NCBI RefSeq assembly: GCF_000703165.1
Contig: NZ_JNLQ01000002.1
Location: forward strand, 186,001 to 250,000
Origin: Butyrivibrio sp. AE3004
GTDB lineage: Bacteria > Bacillota > Clostridia > Lachnospirales > Lachnospiraceae
DNA length: 64,000 bases
Direction: 5' to 3'
The notes under the pieces were generated by a model. That model was not told where the DNA came from. It was given only the letters and a program-made list of their open reading frames with translations, and made no database searches. Numbering within the stretch: position 1 is the first letter of the stretch; every line of letters starts with the position of its first letter. Positions 48,897-56,387 of this stretch are shown in pieces. The position numbers and the translations under genes were made by a program.

Positions 48897-48932
48897 GGTG
48901 GAACGTTATCTCGGAAGTTATGATATGTGTGC

Positions 48933-48983
48933 TTGACAAAAATACTCCTATATCGTAGTATAAAACTACGATATAGGAGTATT
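48933..48983 (+). promoter_or_regulatory. MarR operon promoter overlapped by a perfect 19-bp-arm palindrome
   Basis: TTGACA (48933-48938) and TAGTAT (48956-48961) with 17-base spacing. Arms AATACTCCTATATCGTAGT (48941-48959) and its exact inverse (48965-48983) are separated by 5 bases. The right arm contains the GGAG ribosome site, so both transcription and translation of marR may be controlled here. Confidence 0.85.
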
Positions 48984-48988
48984 AAATT

Positions 48989-49426
48989 ATGAAGACAAAT
49001 GGTGGATTTCTTGTTACAAAAATAAAACAGCTGGGTGATCGTATATTTGAAAGGATACTGGCAGAAAAAAACATTGATGCATTTAACGGAGCTCAGGGAA
49101 GGATTCTTTATGTCTTATGGCAGGAAGATGGTGTTCCTATTAAAATTATTTCCGAGAAAAGCGGACTTGCAATTACTTCACTTACGACCATGCTTGAGCG
49201 GATGGAAAAAAACGGACTGATAAGCCGCAAAACTGATGAAGCTGATAAGAGAAAAACGCTTCTGTTCCTCACAGATAAAGCCAAAGAACTTAAAGAAGCT
49301 TATGACTCCGTATCAAATGAGATGGGGAATATTTATTATCGTGATTTTACGGATAAAGAGATTCTTCAGTTTGAAGAGTATCTTAACCGCATCAGGGTAA
49401 ACCTTGAGGAATGGAGTGACAAATGA
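48989..49426 (+). CDS. MarR regulator of the radical SAM mobile pair system
   Basis: A 145-residue winged-helix protein of the MarR family (IFERILAEKNIDAFNGAQGRILYVLWQEDGVPIKIISEKSGLAITSLTTMLERMEKNGLISRK). It overlaps the first radical SAM gene by 4 bases (ATGA). MarR plus two radical SAM genes in this order is the defined radical SAM mobile pair system. The large palindrome at its promoter is its likely own operator. Confidence 0.88.
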   Translation: MKTNGGFLVTKIKQLGDRIFERILAEKNIDAFNGAQGRILYVLWQEDGVPIKIISEKSGLAITSLTTMLERMEKNGLISRKTDEADKRKTLLFLTDKAKELKEAYDSVSNEMGNIYYRDFTDKEILQFEEYLNRIRVNLEEWSDK

Positions 49427-50121
49427 GTATCTGTATTAAAGATCAGATTCAGAACATGAATCTTGTTATAGGGTGCACTGTTGGATGTCCGTACTGCTAT
49501 GCCAGAAACAATACGAGGCGTTATCACATCATAGATGATTTTGAAAAACCACAGTTTTTTCAAGGAAAGCTTCGTATGATGGAAAAGAAAAAGCCGCAGA
49601 ATTTTCTGCTGACCGGCATGAGCGATCTCTCGGGCTGGCATGAGGAATGGAGAGAGGAAGTCTTTAAAAAGATAGCAGAGAATCCTCAGCACCAGTTTCT
49701 TTTTCTTACCAAACGACCGGATCTTCTGTCTTTTGAAACAGATCTTGATAATGCATGGTTTGGCGTTACAGTTACGAGAAAGTCTGAGTTATGGCGTATT
49801 GATGCACTGCGGAGCAATGTGAAGGCAAAAAAATATCATGTTACCTTTGAGCCTTTGTTCGATGATCCGGGTAAGGTTGATCTTACAGGCATTGACTGGA
49901 TTGTGGTGGGAACCATGACAGGTGCAAAGAGCAGGACTGTTAAAACAGATCCCGGGTGGGCGTATTCATTGACAGAACAGGCTCATGAACTGAACATTCC
50001 TGTATTCTGGAAAGAAGATCTTGTTCCGATTATGGGAGAAGAAATGATACAGGAAATGCCGGATGCTTTTAACAAAGTGCTGGAGGAACAGAGGATATGG
50101 AACAACCAGAAATCAAAGTAA
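49423..50121 (+). CDS. radical SAM mobile pair protein A
   Basis: A 232-residue radical SAM enzyme. CTVGCPYC (about residues 18-25) is the CxxxCxxC 4Fe-4S/SAM motif; FLFLTKRPDLL and IDWIVVGTMTGA are typical of the DUF5131/Gp37-like fold. It overlaps both neighbours (4 and 25 bases), so all three proteins are translationally coupled. The substrate is not known. Confidence 0.88.
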   Translation: MSICIKDQIQNMNLVIGCTVGCPYCYARNNTRRYHIIDDFEKPQFFQGKLRMMEKKKPQNFLLTGMSDLSGWHEEWREEVFKKIAENPQHQFLFLTKRPDLLSFETDLDNAWFGVTVTRKSELWRIDALRSNVKAKKYHVTFEPLFDDPGKVDLTGIDWIVVGTMTGAKSRTVKTDPGWAYSLTEQAHELNIPVFWKEDLVPIMGEEMIQEMPDAFNKVLEEQRIWNNQKSK

Positions 50122-51020
50122 ATCATATAGAAACAAAAAGTGTAATGACAAAATCGAATACTCCTATTGGAGGATATTCGGTGAATCCCTATGTGGGGTG
50201 TCCCCATGCCTGTAAATACTGCTACGCATCTTTTATGAAACGCTTTACAGGGCATACGGAGGAATGGGGAACTTTCATGGATGTGAAAGACTGGCCTGAA
50301 ATAAAGAATCCAAAGAAGTATGCCGGCCAGAAGGTGATCATTGGAACAGTTACGGATGGTTATAATCCGCTAGAGGAAACATATAAAAATACAAGAAGAC
50401 TTCTGGAAGAACTAAAGGAAAGTGGGGCGGACATACTTATCTGCACAAAGTCAGACCTTGTACTAAGAGATCTGGATCTGCTAAAAGATATCAATGAAAA
50501 TAGCAGACTTACAGTATCATGGTCAATCAATACTCTCGATGAAGAGTTTAAAGATGATATGGATGCGGCAGTAAGCATAGAAAGAAGGCTTGCTGCAATG
50601 AAAGAGGTATATGCGGCAGGCATTCGTACAATTTGCTTCATTTCACCCGTGTTCCCGGGGATTACTGATATAGAAGCAATCATAGACAGGACAAAAGATC
50701 AGTGTGACCTTGTATGGCTTGAGAATCTGAATCTTCGCGGAGGTTTTAAGGCAGATATCATGAAATACATTTCCGATAAACATCCGGATCTGCTGCCGCT
50801 GTATGACGAAATCTATAACAAAAAGAACCGCAGCTATTTTGAAGCGCTGGAAAAGAAAGCAGAAGAGCTGGCTAAAAAGTATGATTGCAGGTTTGTTGAT
50901 AATGAAACTCCGTATGAGAGAGTAGAGAAAGGACATCCAACAATCGTAGATTACTTTTACCACGAAGAAGTAAGAGGAACTGCCAATAGTGGAAAGAGAA
51001 ATGTAATACATAATCCTTGA
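50097..51020 (+). CDS. radical SAM mobile pair protein B
   Basis: A 307-residue SPL-type radical SAM protein. CPHACKYC (about residues 35-42) binds the cluster; VIIGTVTDGYNPLE and the long TIM-barrel-like body follow. It is related to the spore photoproduct lyase-like group. It starts inside gene A (25-base overlap). The operon ends at a strong convergent hairpin. Spread of this trio between genomes is known; its biological role is not. Confidence 0.88.
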   Translation: MEQPEIKVNHIETKSVMTKSNTPIGGYSVNPYVGCPHACKYCYASFMKRFTGHTEEWGTFMDVKDWPEIKNPKKYAGQKVIIGTVTDGYNPLEETYKNTRRLLEELKESGADILICTKSDLVLRDLDLLKDINENSRLTVSWSINTLDEEFKDDMDAAVSIERRLAAMKEVYAAGIRTICFISPVFPGITDIEAIIDRTKDQCDLVWLENLNLRGGFKADIMKYISDKHPDLLPLYDEIYNKKNRSYFEALEKKAEELAKKYDCRFVDNETPYERVEKGHPTIVDYFYHEEVRGTANSGKRNVIHNP

Positions 51021-51051
51021 TGGAAGAATAAACCGGAAGATATAAAATAAC

Positions 51052-51421: not shown

Positions 51422-51627
51422 TGATAACACCTCATTTTTATCAAAACTTCAAATTTGAATGTTACATATAAATTTTACTGTTATGGCGTTTGACAGTCAA
51501 TAGGTTACAAAAAGGTAACTATCTAATAAAAAAGTGCGTACTTACAATGATTTCCGGCCTCTGCGATAATCATGATAACAGGAAGGCAATAGGGCCTACT
51601 GAAATCAACTTAACGGAGGTAAATATC
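51422..51627. promoter_or_regulatory. divergent control region of hxlR and the RiPP operon
   Basis: TTGACA at 51490-51495 is followed by an inverted repeat ATAGGTTAC...GTAACTAT (about 51500-51522) and GTGCGTACTTAC (51536), the kind of site bound by HxlR regulators. It suggests HxlR controls the rightward RiPP operon and itself. The exact -10 is not clear. Confidence 0.5.
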
Positions 51628-51843
51628 ATGGCATTATCAAACATTGCAGGATGGAACGAAAACACGGCAGGGAGTGCTTGCGGCGCATCCGACAAACCGG
51701 CAGCATGTGGTGCATCTGAGAAGCCCGCTGCTTGTGGTGCAGGAGATAAGCCCGCTGAAACACCTGCAGCATGTGGGGCGGCAGATAAGCCGGAAGAGAA
51801 ACCTGCAGCTTGCGGAAGTGCTTGTGGCGCAGGGGACAAATAA
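51628..51843 (+). CDS. ACGX-repeat RiPP precursor peptide
   Basis: A 71-residue peptide. After a leader of about 15 residues (MALSNIAGWNENTAG) it is built of repeats with the core ACG followed by Ala or Ser and spacers such as DKPA or EKPA; six ACG units are visible. The start follows CGGAGGT. The next genes encode a SPASM radical SAM enzyme and a nitroreductase. This matches the ACGX-repeat peptide/maturase class proposed by comparative genomics, where the repeated Cys or neighbours would be crosslinked. The mature product is not known to me. Confidence 0.88.
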   Translation: MALSNIAGWNENTAGSACGASDKPAACGASEKPAACGAGDKPAETPAACGAADKPEEKPAACGSACGAGDK

Positions 51844-51860
51844 GAAAGACATACCATGTG

Positions 51861-51891
51861 GATCCCCCAGGCAGTCAAAAGCCGGGGGATC
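51861..51891 (+). terminator. attenuator-like hairpin between precursor and maturase
   Basis: Perfect 8-bp stem GATCCCCC/GGGGGATC with a 15-base loop, followed by ATTTTAG. It lies 17 bases after the precursor stop. A partial terminator here would make precursor mRNA exceed maturase mRNA, as is usual in RiPP operons. Confidence 0.75.
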
Positions 51892-51944
51892 ATTTTAGAA
51901 GACCATCAGCTTACGTGCTGTTTACGATACGGAGGGATACAGAT

Positions 51945-53006
51945 ATGAAGCCATACTTTTCTTTTCAATGGCATATAACAGATGAATGCGATCAGAGATG
52001 TAAGCATTGCTACATCTATTCAGCAGGTAATCACACCTGCCTACAATCCATGAACAGGAAGCAGATGGAAGACACCTTTTATAACTGCCTTGATTTTTGT
52101 GAAATGTATGGCCGTACACCGTATTTCTACATCACGGGCGGAGATCCAATCTTGCATCCGGATTTCTGGAGGCTGCTTGGACTCCTGAAAGAACATGAGA
52201 TCAAGTTTACGGTTCTTGGAAACCCCTTCCACCTAAACAATCAGGTATGCATGGAACTAAAGGGCTATGGATGTGAGAAATATCAGCTTTCTCTTGATGG
52301 CCTCAGAGAGACTCATGACTGGTTCAGAAAGCCGGGCTCCTTTGACTGTACGCTTGAAAAGATTGCATGCATCAATAAGGCAGGGATCCGAAGCGTTATC
52401 ATGACTACGGTTTCAAAAACAAACCGCATGGAAGTTCCGGGGATCATTGATGAAGTGGTAAAGGCAGGTGCTAACGTATTCGCTTTTTCACGGTATGTAC
52501 CGAGCGGCGGAGATCTGGATGCCAGCATGACCGCACAGGAATACAGAGAGCTTCTGGCTGTCTGTGACAAGAAGTTCAAAGAATACGAAGCAGAAGGATG
52601 TGAGACATACTTTAACAAGAAGGATCACCTTTGGACGCTTTATGAATATGAGACCGGTGAGTTTAAGATTCCCGAGAGCGCAAAAGAGGGAATGATATAT
52701 GGCGGATGTAACTGCGGAAACTGCCATATCACGATCCTTCCTAATGGCGATATTTATGCATGCCGAAGAGTAGCAGAGAGTAAAGTAGGAAACGTATTTG
52801 AAGACAGACTTGCGGATGTGTGGGTTTGTCAGATGGAGAGTTACAGAGAGTATGAGAAGTTCAGTAAATGTTCTAAATGTGAATTAAAGCCCTGGTGCAG
52901 GGGATGTCCTGCAGTCGCAAAAGGAACAAACGGAGATTTTTATGCTGCGGATCCGCAGTGCTGGAAAATAAAGAACGAGATCACAGGGGAGGTGTTATCA
53001 TGTTGA
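51945..53006 (+). CDS. radical SAM/SPASM peptide maturase (ACGX type)
   Basis: A 353-residue radical SAM enzyme. CDQRCKHC (about residues 14-21) is the SAM cluster motif, followed by FYITGGDPILHP. The C-terminal SPASM region supplies cysteines for auxiliary clusters: CNCGNCH, ACRRV, CSKCELKPWCRGCPA and DPQC. Start at the ATG at 51945 after CGGAGGG. It would install bonds in the neighbouring ACGX peptide. Its stop overlaps the nitroreductase start (ATGTTGA), so the two are coupled. Confidence 0.9.
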   Translation: MKPYFSFQWHITDECDQRCKHCYIYSAGNHTCLQSMNRKQMEDTFYNCLDFCEMYGRTPYFYITGGDPILHPDFWRLLGLLKEHEIKFTVLGNPFHLNNQVCMELKGYGCEKYQLSLDGLRETHDWFRKPGSFDCTLEKIACINKAGIRSVIMTTVSKTNRMEVPGIIDEVVKAGANVFAFSRYVPSGGDLDASMTAQEYRELLAVCDKKFKEYEAEGCETYFNKKDHLWTLYEYETGEFKIPESAKEGMIYGGCNCGNCHITILPNGDIYACRRVAESKVGNVFEDRLADVWVCQMESYREYEKFSKCSKCELKPWCRGCPAVAKGTNGDFYAADPQCWKIKNEITGEVLSC

Positions 53007-53575
53007 TGGATATCATTAAAAGCAGACATTCGATCAGGAAGTATACGGATGAACAGATCAGTCGTGAGGATCTTGAGAAGATTCTCGAAGCAGGAAACTA
53101 TGCGCCGAATGCAGGCGGAGGGCAGCGCAGCATGATGGTGGCTCTTCACAATAAGGAGCTGACTAGAAAGCTTGGTATCATGAACCTTGCGAAGTTTAAC
53201 AGGGGAAACCTTGTTGGTTCTTATGTGTCGAAGGAGCAGCCCAGTGTCATTGATGATCCGACAATGAAGGATGGCTTCTACGGAGCACCGACGGTTATAG
53301 CTATCTTTTCACAGGGGAATTTCCTGCTTAAGACGGCAGATGCTTTCTGCATGGCAGAAAATATAGTCCTTCAGGCAACGGAACTTGGTATTGCATCGTG
53401 CATCATTTCCAGAGGCGAGGAGACTTTTGACAGTGAAGAAGGCCGGACACTTATGAAAGAATGGGCCGTTCCCGATAATTATATATGTCAGGGCTTTGTG
53501 GTTCTCGGATATATCGACGGAGAGCAACCGGTAAGCAAACCGAGAAAACCCGGCAGAGTACAGATCATAGAGTGA
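53000..53575 (+). CDS. nitroreductase-family flavoprotein
   Basis: A 191-residue FMN-dependent nitroreductase-like protein (IKSRHSIRKYTDEQISREDLEKILEAGNYAPNAGGGQRSMMVAL...ALGIASC-like ELGIASCII, QGFVVLGYIDGEQPVSKPRKPGRV). Start ATG at 53000, overlapping the maturase stop by 7 bases. In the same operon as the precursor peptide it may oxidise or reduce the modified peptide, or supply electrons to the maturase; both are inference. A hairpin follows. Confidence 0.88.
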   Translation: MLMDIIKSRHSIRKYTDEQISREDLEKILEAGNYAPNAGGGQRSMMVALHNKELTRKLGIMNLAKFNRGNLVGSYVSKEQPSVIDDPTMKDGFYGAPTVIAIFSQGNFLLKTADAFCMAENIVLQATELGIASCIISRGEETFDSEEGRTLMKEWAVPDNYICQGFVVLGYIDGEQPVSKPRKPGRVQIIE

Positions 53576-53579
53576 GGGA

Positions 53580-53617
53580 GGTGCGATTATGACGAAGTCA
53601 TAATTATGCATCGCACC
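53580..53617 (+). terminator. hairpin after the RiPP operon
   Basis: Outer stem GGTGCGA/TCGCACC and inner ATGAC/GTCAT, directly after the nitroreductase stop. There is no T-run, so termination strength is uncertain. Confidence 0.55.
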
Positions 53618-55345: not shown

Positions 55346-56045
55346 ATGAGAAAGAAACTGGTTTTAGCACCGATTATGATGGCAGCTGTCTTATTGTTTA
55401 CGGCATCTGCTTCGTCCGGAAGCACCGGAGGGAGTGGAGAAGGGGCAGACCGTGAGGTTCTTTTTCAGGTTTCATTGCTTCAGGGTTTAACCTTCGGTGA
55501 TTATCATGGCAGTATTACTGCCGGAGAACTTAAACAGAACGGAGATACCGGGCTTGGTACTTTTGACGGACTTGATGGCGAAATGATAGTACTTGACGGT
55601 GTTGTTTATAAAGCAAAGAGTGATGGCTTAGTCGAAAAGATAAGTGATGATGAGACAATCCCTTTTTCAAATGTGACTTTCTTTGACGAGGGTGAAAATG
55701 TAACGCTCGAAGGAATCACTGATATTGACGCATTAAAGGAGCTGCTGAATGAAAAACTTGAAGGGAAACTCCCGAATGGGTTCTGCGTTATACGAATCGA
55801 TGGTAAATTTAAGGAGATGAATGTTCGCAGCGAATATAAGCAAAACGAACCTTATAAGCCACTTGCAAAGGTTCTTGAGACAGACCAGACATTTTTTGAT
55901 TATTCCGATATAGAAGGAACTGTGGTGGGATTATACTGTCCGCCATATATGGATAAGTTAAATGCGGCAGGATGGCATCTGCACTTTATTTCAAAAGACA
56001 GGGAAAAAGGAGGCCATGTACTTGGCCTGAATATTGATAATGATC
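55346..56045 (+). pseudogene. budA: alpha-acetolactate decarboxylase, copy 2, 3'-truncated
   Basis: A signal peptide (about residues 1-25), then the acetolactate decarboxylase fold (FQVSLLQGLTFGDYHGSITAGEL...) through the zinc site HLHF and GGHVLG. The enzyme makes acetoin from acetolactate; secreted forms exist in Firmicutes. At about residue 232 (LNIDNDLLDF) it runs into a tyrosine recombinase fragment on the other strand, so the last about 25-30 residues are lost; the frame stops at 56083. It may be inactive or unstable. Ribosome site AAGGGGGC. Confidence 0.82.
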
Positions 56046-56340
56046 TCCTCGATTTTTGCTGTTGCGTACGTGAACCTGCATAGTGCTCATGTAAATATCG
56101 CCAGGTGCAAGCCTGACAACTTCACCTGCACGTAGTCCTGAAGAATAGACAAGAGCTATTATGGCTTTGTTCCTGATATTTTCAGCAGTGTCTATTAGTT
56201 TTTCAATTTCTTCCAAAGAAAGAGTTTGTGGTAATGTCCAATCAATCTTCATTCTGGGAACGATATCAAGATCCCACGGGATATGTATATCAGTCCATTT
56301 TTGAGATAACAAATAACTGTCTGCTAAAGCTTTTATAAAG
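56045..56340 (-). pseudogene. tyrosine recombinase fragment
   Basis: Minus-strand codons read LPQTLSLEEIEKLIDTAENI, then RNKAIIALVYSSGLRAGEVV with the catalytic Arg, then LAPGDIYMSTMQVHVRNSKN. This is the middle of an XerC-like/IS91-associated integrase. Both ends are missing: one is joined to budA, the other to the aldo-keto reductase region. Confidence 0.8.
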
Positions 56341-56387
56341 TATAGCAGACTGACACAAAACAACAAATATAAGGAGGACAAAGCAAA

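Follow-up and report, generated by a model that had tools for sequence, protein, structure and literature searches.

SbtM is described as a SPASM radical S-adenosylmethionine (SAM) enzyme that modifies cysteine or selenocysteine and forms a thio(seleno)oxazole with the loss of four hydrogens (PMC11002830). PapB joins Cys to Asp or Glu in CX3D/E motifs with a loss of 2 Da, the case reported being freyrasin (PMC9413430). Captophorins are described as copper-binding peptides whose repeats, for example EGKCG, bear 5-thiooxazoles and which are formed under stress by O2-using MNIO enzymes (PMC12668002, a preprint; see also PMC12538549). DUF24 regulators are reported to sense hypochlorous acid, quinones, and diamide via an N-terminal cysteine. 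In Bacillus subtilis, the redox-sensing Cys14 of the DUF24 regulator HypR reacts under thiol stress, and regulators of this family control a nitroreductase, YodC being a nitroreductase within a DUF24 regulon (PMC6943732). Here, we describe the ACGX operon of Butyrivibrio sp. AE3004, which lies in a 64,000-nucleotide stretch of contig NZ_JNLQ01000002.1 (hereafter the window) and encodes a Cys-repeat precursor peptide, a radical SAM/SPASM maturase, and a nitroreductase, with a divergent gene for an HxlR/DUF24-family regulator. The neighbours of this operon in related bacteria suggest protection against redox or thiol stress rather than production of an antibiotic. Its likenesses to a redox regulon, a thiooxazole peptide, and a SirTM redox carrier are treated as resemblances.

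The operon in the window is real and intact (Table 1). An earlier note, made from the sequence of the window, had proposed a precursor with six ACG units, a SPASM radical SAM enzyme, an intact, translationally coupled nitroreductase, a divergent HxlR gene, and a hairpin 3' of the precursor gene. All of these parts are borne out, and the TIGRFAM search that the note proposed places both the peptide and the maturase above curated cut-offs. The pairing of radical SAM enzyme and repeat peptide is likewise embodied in two curated models, TIGR04341 and TIGR04340 (NCBIfam), which match adjacent genes here. Judged by these models, the locus belongs to the ACGX system as an ordinary member, with no defining difference, and what is new is its genomic context. 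The names and descriptions of the models are silent on the HxlR motif, the exchangeable oxidoreductases, and the link to the Zn-macrodomain and SirTM. The word "complete" in the note fits in part: all named parts are intact, but 26 of the 52 relative loci with 5 kb of downstream sequence add both a Zn-macrodomain (Zn-Macro) gene and a SirTM gene, which are absent here. The interval given for the operon, 51422-53617, starts where the HxlR start codon ends, and the HxlR gene falls outside it. The nitroreductase ATG sits inside the last radical SAM codons, overlapping the radical SAM gene up to its stop by 7 nt.

Table 1. Features of the ACGX operon and its regulator gene, numbered by position in the window.
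Feature	Position	Strand	Basis and remarks
HxlR/DUF24-family regulator, 107 aa	51098..51421	-	Divergent from the operon; PF01638 108.3 bits (cut-off 20.8)
First copy of putative tandem HxlR operator, GTTACAAAAAGGTAAC	51504..51519		Inverted repeat; sequence and similar sites 5' of relatives' precursors
Second operator copy, TAATAAAAAAGTGCGTACTT	51524..51543		Abuts the -35; sequence and relatives
Putative promoter	51542..51570	+	-35 TTACAA 51542-51547, 17-nt spacer, -10 GATAAT 51565-51570; by eye, window and relatives
ACGX-repeat precursor, 71 aa, six ACG units, leader MALSNIAGW	51628..51843	+	TIGR04341 73.1 bits (cut-off 28; model positions 1-65 of 65); translation
Terminator/attenuator-like hairpin in precursor-enzyme gap	~51860..51891	+	-21.8 kcal/mol; counterparts in relatives
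Radical SAM/SPASM maturase of the ACGX system, 353 aa	51945..53006	+	TIGR04340 587 bits (cut-off 400; positions 2-339 of 341); CX3CX2C and seven SPASM cysteines
Nitroreductase-family protein, 191 aa	53000..53575	+	PF00881 82.9 bits (cut-off 23.5)
Palindrome 3' of nitroreductase, possible operon end	53580..53617		By eye; no T run after it

Searches of open-licence PubMed Central (PMC) papers revealed no product or role for ACGX peptides, which agrees with the remark in the earlier note that no product structure was known. Nor did any of four model names occur in these papers. Among the matches listed for "ACGX" in these papers, the letters stand for other things. None of the papers joins HxlR, radical SAM, and ribosomally synthesized and post-translationally modified peptides (RiPPs), and none contains at least three of the terms macrodomain, sirtuin, radical SAM, and peptide maturase. 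The context of the operon points to a concrete and directly testable role for a numerous, uncharacterised RiPP family.

Relatives of the enzyme are encoded in 524 genome-contig stretches, and the relative loci analysed are the best 80 of these plus a few others. L086, L088, L090, and L091, which we took to duplicate L006, L007, L048, and L043 exactly or nearly so, were dropped before the counts, and the window's own copy (L089) was dropped from most counts. Near-copies were kept in the 60-locus upstream count, where they drop out by length, and in the 74-locus 1.5-kb counts. Of the 60 loci whose upstream sequence extends 1.5 kb or more, 58 contain a divergent HxlR gene. Cys10 of the regulator is conserved in all 68 rows of the unfiltered HxlR collection (an earlier GSKW-filtered set held 39 rows), and no later cysteine follows in 64 of them. 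In the window, the regulator has Cys10 as its single cysteine, and its residues 9-103 align to residues 13-107 of YybR, which we take to be HypR. Cys10 falls at the position of HypR Cys14, the offset of four at the cysteine being read from the alignment ends. Family, conserved N-terminal cysteine, and the YybR alignment together mark the protein as a candidate HypR-type redox-sensing regulator.

An (A/G)TGCGT half-site is present in 70/74 precursor upstream regions and both halves in 64/74; for comparison, 27 of 2260 random 130-nt fragments taken from the analysed loci contain both. There are 63 loci that have HxlR as well as the motif, and the two are concordant in 67 of 68, L064 being the sole discordant locus, with the motif and no HxlR gene. 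The second operator copy of the window is the only site in the 4.47-Mb host genome that matches TTAYAAAAARGTGCGTAC with at most one mismatch. From this co-occurrence, the ACGX HxlR may be predicted to act on the tandem promoter motif. A wider HxlR regulon in the host genome was considered and rejected: the motif with at most three mismatches gave 20 matches vs. 27 for the reversed control. In the HypR/YodB/HxlR-type redox regulons of B. subtilis, an N-terminal-Cys DUF24 regulator also stands beside a nitroreductase or quinone-reductase-like gene. The ACGX HxlR differs in adjoining a modified-peptide operon, which it is predicted to regulate.

Downstream, the operon is accompanied by a redox enzyme. 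In 57/57 loci with at least 3 kb of downstream sequence, an oxidoreductase of one of four kinds lies on the same strand within 3 kb. The window-type nitroreductase is present in 31 of the 57 and a quinone-oxidoreductase-like protein (TIGR02824 148 bits, below the cut-off of 296.8) in 24, and no locus has both if a match to the window nitroreductase is counted from 50 bits upwards; L012, a quinone-oxidoreductase locus, holds a further nitroreductase match at 49 bits. The remaining loci carry PPOX-ferredoxin or ferredoxin-nitroreductase proteins, which also accompany the first two kinds, and ferredoxin-fused nitroreductase-domain proteins do co-occur with the quinone-oxidoreductase-like protein. 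Within 1.5 kb, an oxidoreductase is found in 72 of 74 loci, all except L035 and L084. None of the partners is present at 24 of 24 other radical SAM loci of the relatives and the host (flanks of about 1.5 kb per side); the 25th comparison locus, L093, proved to encode a truncated ACGX enzyme, accompanied by the nitroreductase and SirTM. The redox-linked modification or use that the earlier note drew from the nitroreductase and HxlR is strengthened by the invariant cysteine, the motif, the constant oxidoreductase, and the SirTM/Zn-Macro pair of half the longer loci, but the window-type nitroreductase itself is replaceable. Desulfoferrodoxin-like genes (by eye) were also seen near three closely related ACGX loci (L050, L063, and L065) and near L145, a SirTM locus of an ACGX genome, a further hint of oxygen stress.

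The precursor in the window consists of MALSNIAGWNENTAGS followed by six ACG units. ACGX precursors share the conserved leader MALSN(I/L)xGW, in which no GG-type or signal sequence is seen by eye. In 73 distinct precursors, Ala precedes the cysteine in 431/445 cases and Gly follows it in 438/445, shares that are somewhat inflated since the precursor finder accepted only peptides having two or more [ASP]C[GSR] motifs. The number of repeats varies, with three to ten cysteines per peptide. The residue at +4 is Asp or Glu in 271/445 cases (5 of 6 in the window peptide) and Cys in 151/445. The near-fixed neighbours at -1 and +1 would suit a local ring at each cysteine.

The enzyme contains radical SAM and SPASM as its only Pfam domains, and no recognition-element domain was found by Pfam in the four operon proteins. 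Its Cys 15, 19, 22, 257, 273, 309, 312, 318, 321, and 339 are invariant in 83/83 rows drawn from the analysed loci, with a median pairwise identity of 81%. SbtM (TIGR04082) is the second-best NCBIfam model for all four ACGX enzymes scored, at 159.6 (window), 185.0, 178.7, and 191.8 bits; three of the four are divergent, and the top score belongs to L092, the most divergent. For none of the five other SPASM enzymes scored, four of them TIGR04133-like and one of the SCIFF kind, is SbtM among the 25 models listed. PapB (NF047865) gives 68.5 bits with the window enzyme, vs. a cut-off of 340, and 58-71 bits overall where the listed models include it, namely in three ACGX enzymes (it is unlisted for L087). 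The earlier note expected thioether or similar crosslinks with a loss of 2 Da per repeat; other chemistry is better supported, given that SbtM, with its loss of four hydrogens per Cys, outscores PapB for the enzyme (160-192 bits for SbtM across the ACGX enzymes), these model scores standing in for a tree with authentic SbtM and PapB sequences. SbtM-type local Cys chemistry, which we rank above thioethers, is perhaps two-fifths of the way to certainty in our judgement. The two chemistries should be distinguishable by mass, the first predicting that each Cys loses 4 Da and that a band appears at 305 nm, the second a loss of 2 Da per Cys/acid pair.

Among known structures, the enzyme has only weak relatives, the best being SkfB at 37.9 bits in a comparison with the PDB. 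SbtM at E 1e-60 was found in 0/398 genomes of the phylum and in none of the controls either, so that its absence is not proven. The PapB model matched 313/398 phylum genomes, none above cut-off, and the one such match checked, L164, is a SCIFF maturase. The host gene at G000:C2:2357425-2358426 also matches the PapB model (287.8 bits) and is likely the same common SCIFF maturase.

From these observations, we infer the inducer, the direction of regulation, the chemistry, the location, and the function of the operon as follows. The HypR-like HxlR would sense reactive electrophiles, oxidants, or thiol imbalance via Cys10 and control the precursor promoter via the tandem motif next to the -35. The hairpin in the gap would allow more peptide than enzyme to be made. 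The radical SAM enzyme would bind the conserved leader and act locally on the cysteine of each ACG unit, most likely as SbtM does, with four hydrogens lost and a thiol-bearing thiooxazole formed. The resulting poly-thiol peptide would be retained intracellularly, where it would be redox-active or bind soft metals. The adjoining oxidoreductase, a nitroreductase here and elsewhere a quinone-reductase-like protein, a flavin/ferredoxin protein, or a combination, would reduce the same stressors or the peptide. A stress-device role for the operon is fairly probable in our view. The fuller reading, an inducible intracellular thiol/redox-stress device with SbtM-like Cys modification, is the one we favour, at slightly less than an even chance.

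Several points weigh against this favoured reading. HxlR and the motif are jointly absent from the divergent loci L084, L085, L087, and L092. A LysR-family gene lies upstream in L085 (PF00126) and L084 (by eye) in place of HxlR, and the regulator is therefore exchangeable. No wider HxlR regulon is seen, because the motif has a single strong copy in the host genome. The window enzyme stays below the SbtM cut-off of 350 and aligns only to SbtM positions 198-515 of 516, and the next models for ACGX enzymes are the heme-pathway AhbD (111-147 bits) and TIGR04053 (115-139 bits). The acidic residues at +4 would also fit CX3D/E thioethers, and the inflation of the Cys-flank shares has been noted. The loci are related by kinship and the repeats within one peptide are not independent, so that the counts overstate the evidence. 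Finally, export of the peptide by an unlinked transporter is possible; an ABC-ATPase cluster occurs near 5/88 loci and a MATE-like cluster near 4/88.

The leading rival is a PapB-like ranthipeptide, in which each Cys is joined to Asp or Glu at +4, so that thioether rings would follow one another along the peptide and few thiols would stay free. Like freyrasin, the window peptide has six Cys-containing units, with CX3D/E at five of the six cysteines, and the divergent L092 peptide retains CGTAD/CGTKD while losing K. However, Ala at -1 and Gly at +1 are more constant than the residue at +4. ACGX peptides also differ from freyrasin in their near-invariant ACG core and in units of the form Cys-X3-Cys, the CGAS units of L085 have no acid at +4, and the PapB scores are low. 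We regard this chemistry as rather unlikely. SbtM is the nearest characterised enzyme model to the four ACGX enzymes and likewise a SPASM radical SAM enzyme; as for differences, SbtM positions 1-197 are unmatched, and the peptide of the window has no selenocysteine. A metallophore is an improbable alternative, in which a Cys/thiooxazole repeat peptide would buffer copper or soft metals as the anaerobic radical SAM counterpart of bufferins and captophorins. The C-G core resembles the EGKCG repeats of those peptides, the stress setting is shared, and a P-type-ATPase-like cluster lies near 3/88 loci. The EGKCG peptides are made by O2-using MNIO enzymes, whereas ACGX uses radical SAM chemistry, and no MNIO maturase (PF05114) was matched in the host genome; a control search matched 2/14 genomes. 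By eye, however, the neighbour clusters that recur often include no metal regulator or metal transporter, the usual partners being HxlR and flavin/NAD(P)H-type oxidoreductases. If the SbtM-like reading holds, anaerobes would use radical chemistry to reach products for which aerobes rely on O2-using MNIO enzymes.

A redox cofactor derived from the peptide in the manner of mycofactocin or pyrroloquinoline quinone (PQQ), serving the neighbouring oxidoreductase, would account for the constant presence of that enzyme within 3 kb, and the mycofactocin model is among the matches of ACGX enzymes (79-95 bits). Yet three to ten cysteines in variable repeats fit a polymeric thiol carrier better than one small cofactor, no peptidase is found among the frequent clusters (by eye), and the oxidoreductase family is freely exchanged between loci. 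This alternative appears very unlikely. Many radical SAM peptides are secreted RiPPs, and an antimicrobial or signalling peptide exported by an unlinked transporter might draw on the ABC-ATPase and MATE-like clusters mentioned above. No exporter, protease, peptidase, or immunity gene is present, however, in neighbour clusters seen in more than 7/88 loci (clusters named by eye), the leader has no GG-type or signal sequence by eye, and the enzyme is well conserved, at least among the rows compared, which come from the best 80 of 524 relatives plus a few others. Secretion for such purposes therefore seems to us scarcely credible.

A further context of the operon concerns ADP-ribosylation. SirTM is described as an ADP-ribosyl transferase with lipoylated GcvH-L as its sole known target, in an operon with oxidoreductases and a role in oxidative stress (PMC4518038, PMC11490716); the targets of SirTM/Zn-Macro pairs outside GcvH-L systems are stated to be unknown (PMC11490716). 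In the 52 longer loci, a Zn-macrodomain gene is present in 27 and a SirTM gene in 31, the identity of both across loci resting on the genes of L006. There, the Zn-Macro protein scores 371.9 bits with NF003163 (cut-off 272), with 8rsi and 5kiv as its best PDB matches. The SIR2 gene of L006 has 5a3a as its best PDB match (252.6 bits) and scores 21.6 with Pfam SIR2, just below the cut-off of 24. We take 5a3a, labelled "SIR2 family protein" in the database, to be SirTM of S. pyogenes. No SirTM match lies beside the window operon, the matches of the host genome being elsewhere, and the host Zn-Macro/SirTM pair is about 290 kb away. On the far side of HxlR, window positions 48911-51042 (MarR, DUF5131, and radical SAM genes) have a second copy in the host that directly follows this pair; since the 2132 bp are 99.1% identical, a recent duplication links the two places.

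No GcvH match was found in the host genome, and the seven of 99 genomes with GcvH matches above 100 bits are all SirTM-negative. SirTM is present in 26 of the 99 genomes (host included), none of which has a GcvH match above 30 bits. These genomes have no match or partial ones of 20-29 bits, several above the Pfam cut-off of 22.2, which we take as other lipoyl/biotinyl domains. In the extended SirTM/Zn-Macro operon (GcvH-L, LplA2, OYE, and LLM), the pair lies with oxidoreductases, as it does in the longer ACGX loci that have both genes, but there the ACGX peptide and the radical SAM enzyme occupy the place of GcvH-L and LplA2. The modified peptide could be imagined to stand in, as a ribosomal product, for lipoylated GcvH-L. 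It would then carry redox equivalents on thiols, perhaps those of poly-thiooxazoles, be loaded and unloaded by the operon oxidoreductase, and be switched by SirTM/Zn-Macro ADP-ribosylation on its many Asp or Glu residues. We hold this to be distinctly improbable. If true, it would provide a SirTM target beyond GcvH-L and a new redox peptide made by a radical SAM enzyme. Against it, the ACGX enzyme is above cut-off in 5 of the 26 SirTM-positive genomes (G000, G005, G014, G058, and G088; truncated in G041), so that ACGX is a possible SirTM partner where both occur and not generally. As the general target of SirTM, ACGX was rejected, the enzyme being above cut-off in 8/99 genomes vs. 26/99 for SirTM. 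It is nevertheless a candidate partner for SirTM/Zn-Macro pairs with targets unknown beyond GcvH-L.

At the RNA level, a strong hairpin (best 45-nt fold of -10 kcal/mol or below) is present in 69/69 precursor-enzyme gaps, with z < -1.64 in 64 of them (30 shuffles each). The 69 comprise 68 of the relatives' 77 gaps and that of L089, gaps shorter than 60 nt (6) or longer than 240 nt (3) being left out. The count takes the strongest fold of each gap, which in L005, L008, and L010 at least is another hairpin than usual. Stem sequences diverge widely between lineages. The hairpin would probably hold expression of the enzyme below that of the peptide. In the 5' leader, close to where the precursor mRNA is expected to begin, a possible stem-loop at 51578-51603 is convincing to the eye and recurs in many relatives; the predicted fold of the window leader has -11.1 kcal/mol. 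This conserved leader hairpin was rejected, as RNAalifold predicted no pair on an alignment of the window and 59 of 71 relatives' leaders. The 12 omitted (L005, L006, L017, L021, L044, L050, L052, L053, L059, L063, L065, and L071) were near-copies or had no visible element; the alignment was thus favourable to the hairpin, because leaders without the element had been removed, and still gave no pair.

Recurrence of the locus is far beyond chance. Precursor homologues number 2011 (90% clusters) at E 0.01, and the 120 of these listed carry PF27855. The host genome encodes one ACGX enzyme above the TIGR04340 cut-off. Since such an enzyme is present in only 8/99 genomes (host included), six of them among the 61 same-genus genomes, the distribution is patchy. 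Many named carriers are rumen and gut anaerobes, and the closest named isolates by enzyme are Butyrivibrio sp. XPD2002 (L006, 99%) and INlla14 (L007, 93%). Enzymes 85-98% identical to that of the window were also seen in metagenome-assembled genomes labelled Prevotella, Succinivibrio, Spirochaetales, and Sphaerochaetaceae (L005, L009, L016, and L030), which reflect either binning errors or recent transfer. A tRNA scan of the window found no tRNA. A minus-strand fragment of a tyrosine recombinase gene (PF00589) at 55986-56381, close to a gene for alpha-acetolactate decarboxylase, points to past rearrangement.

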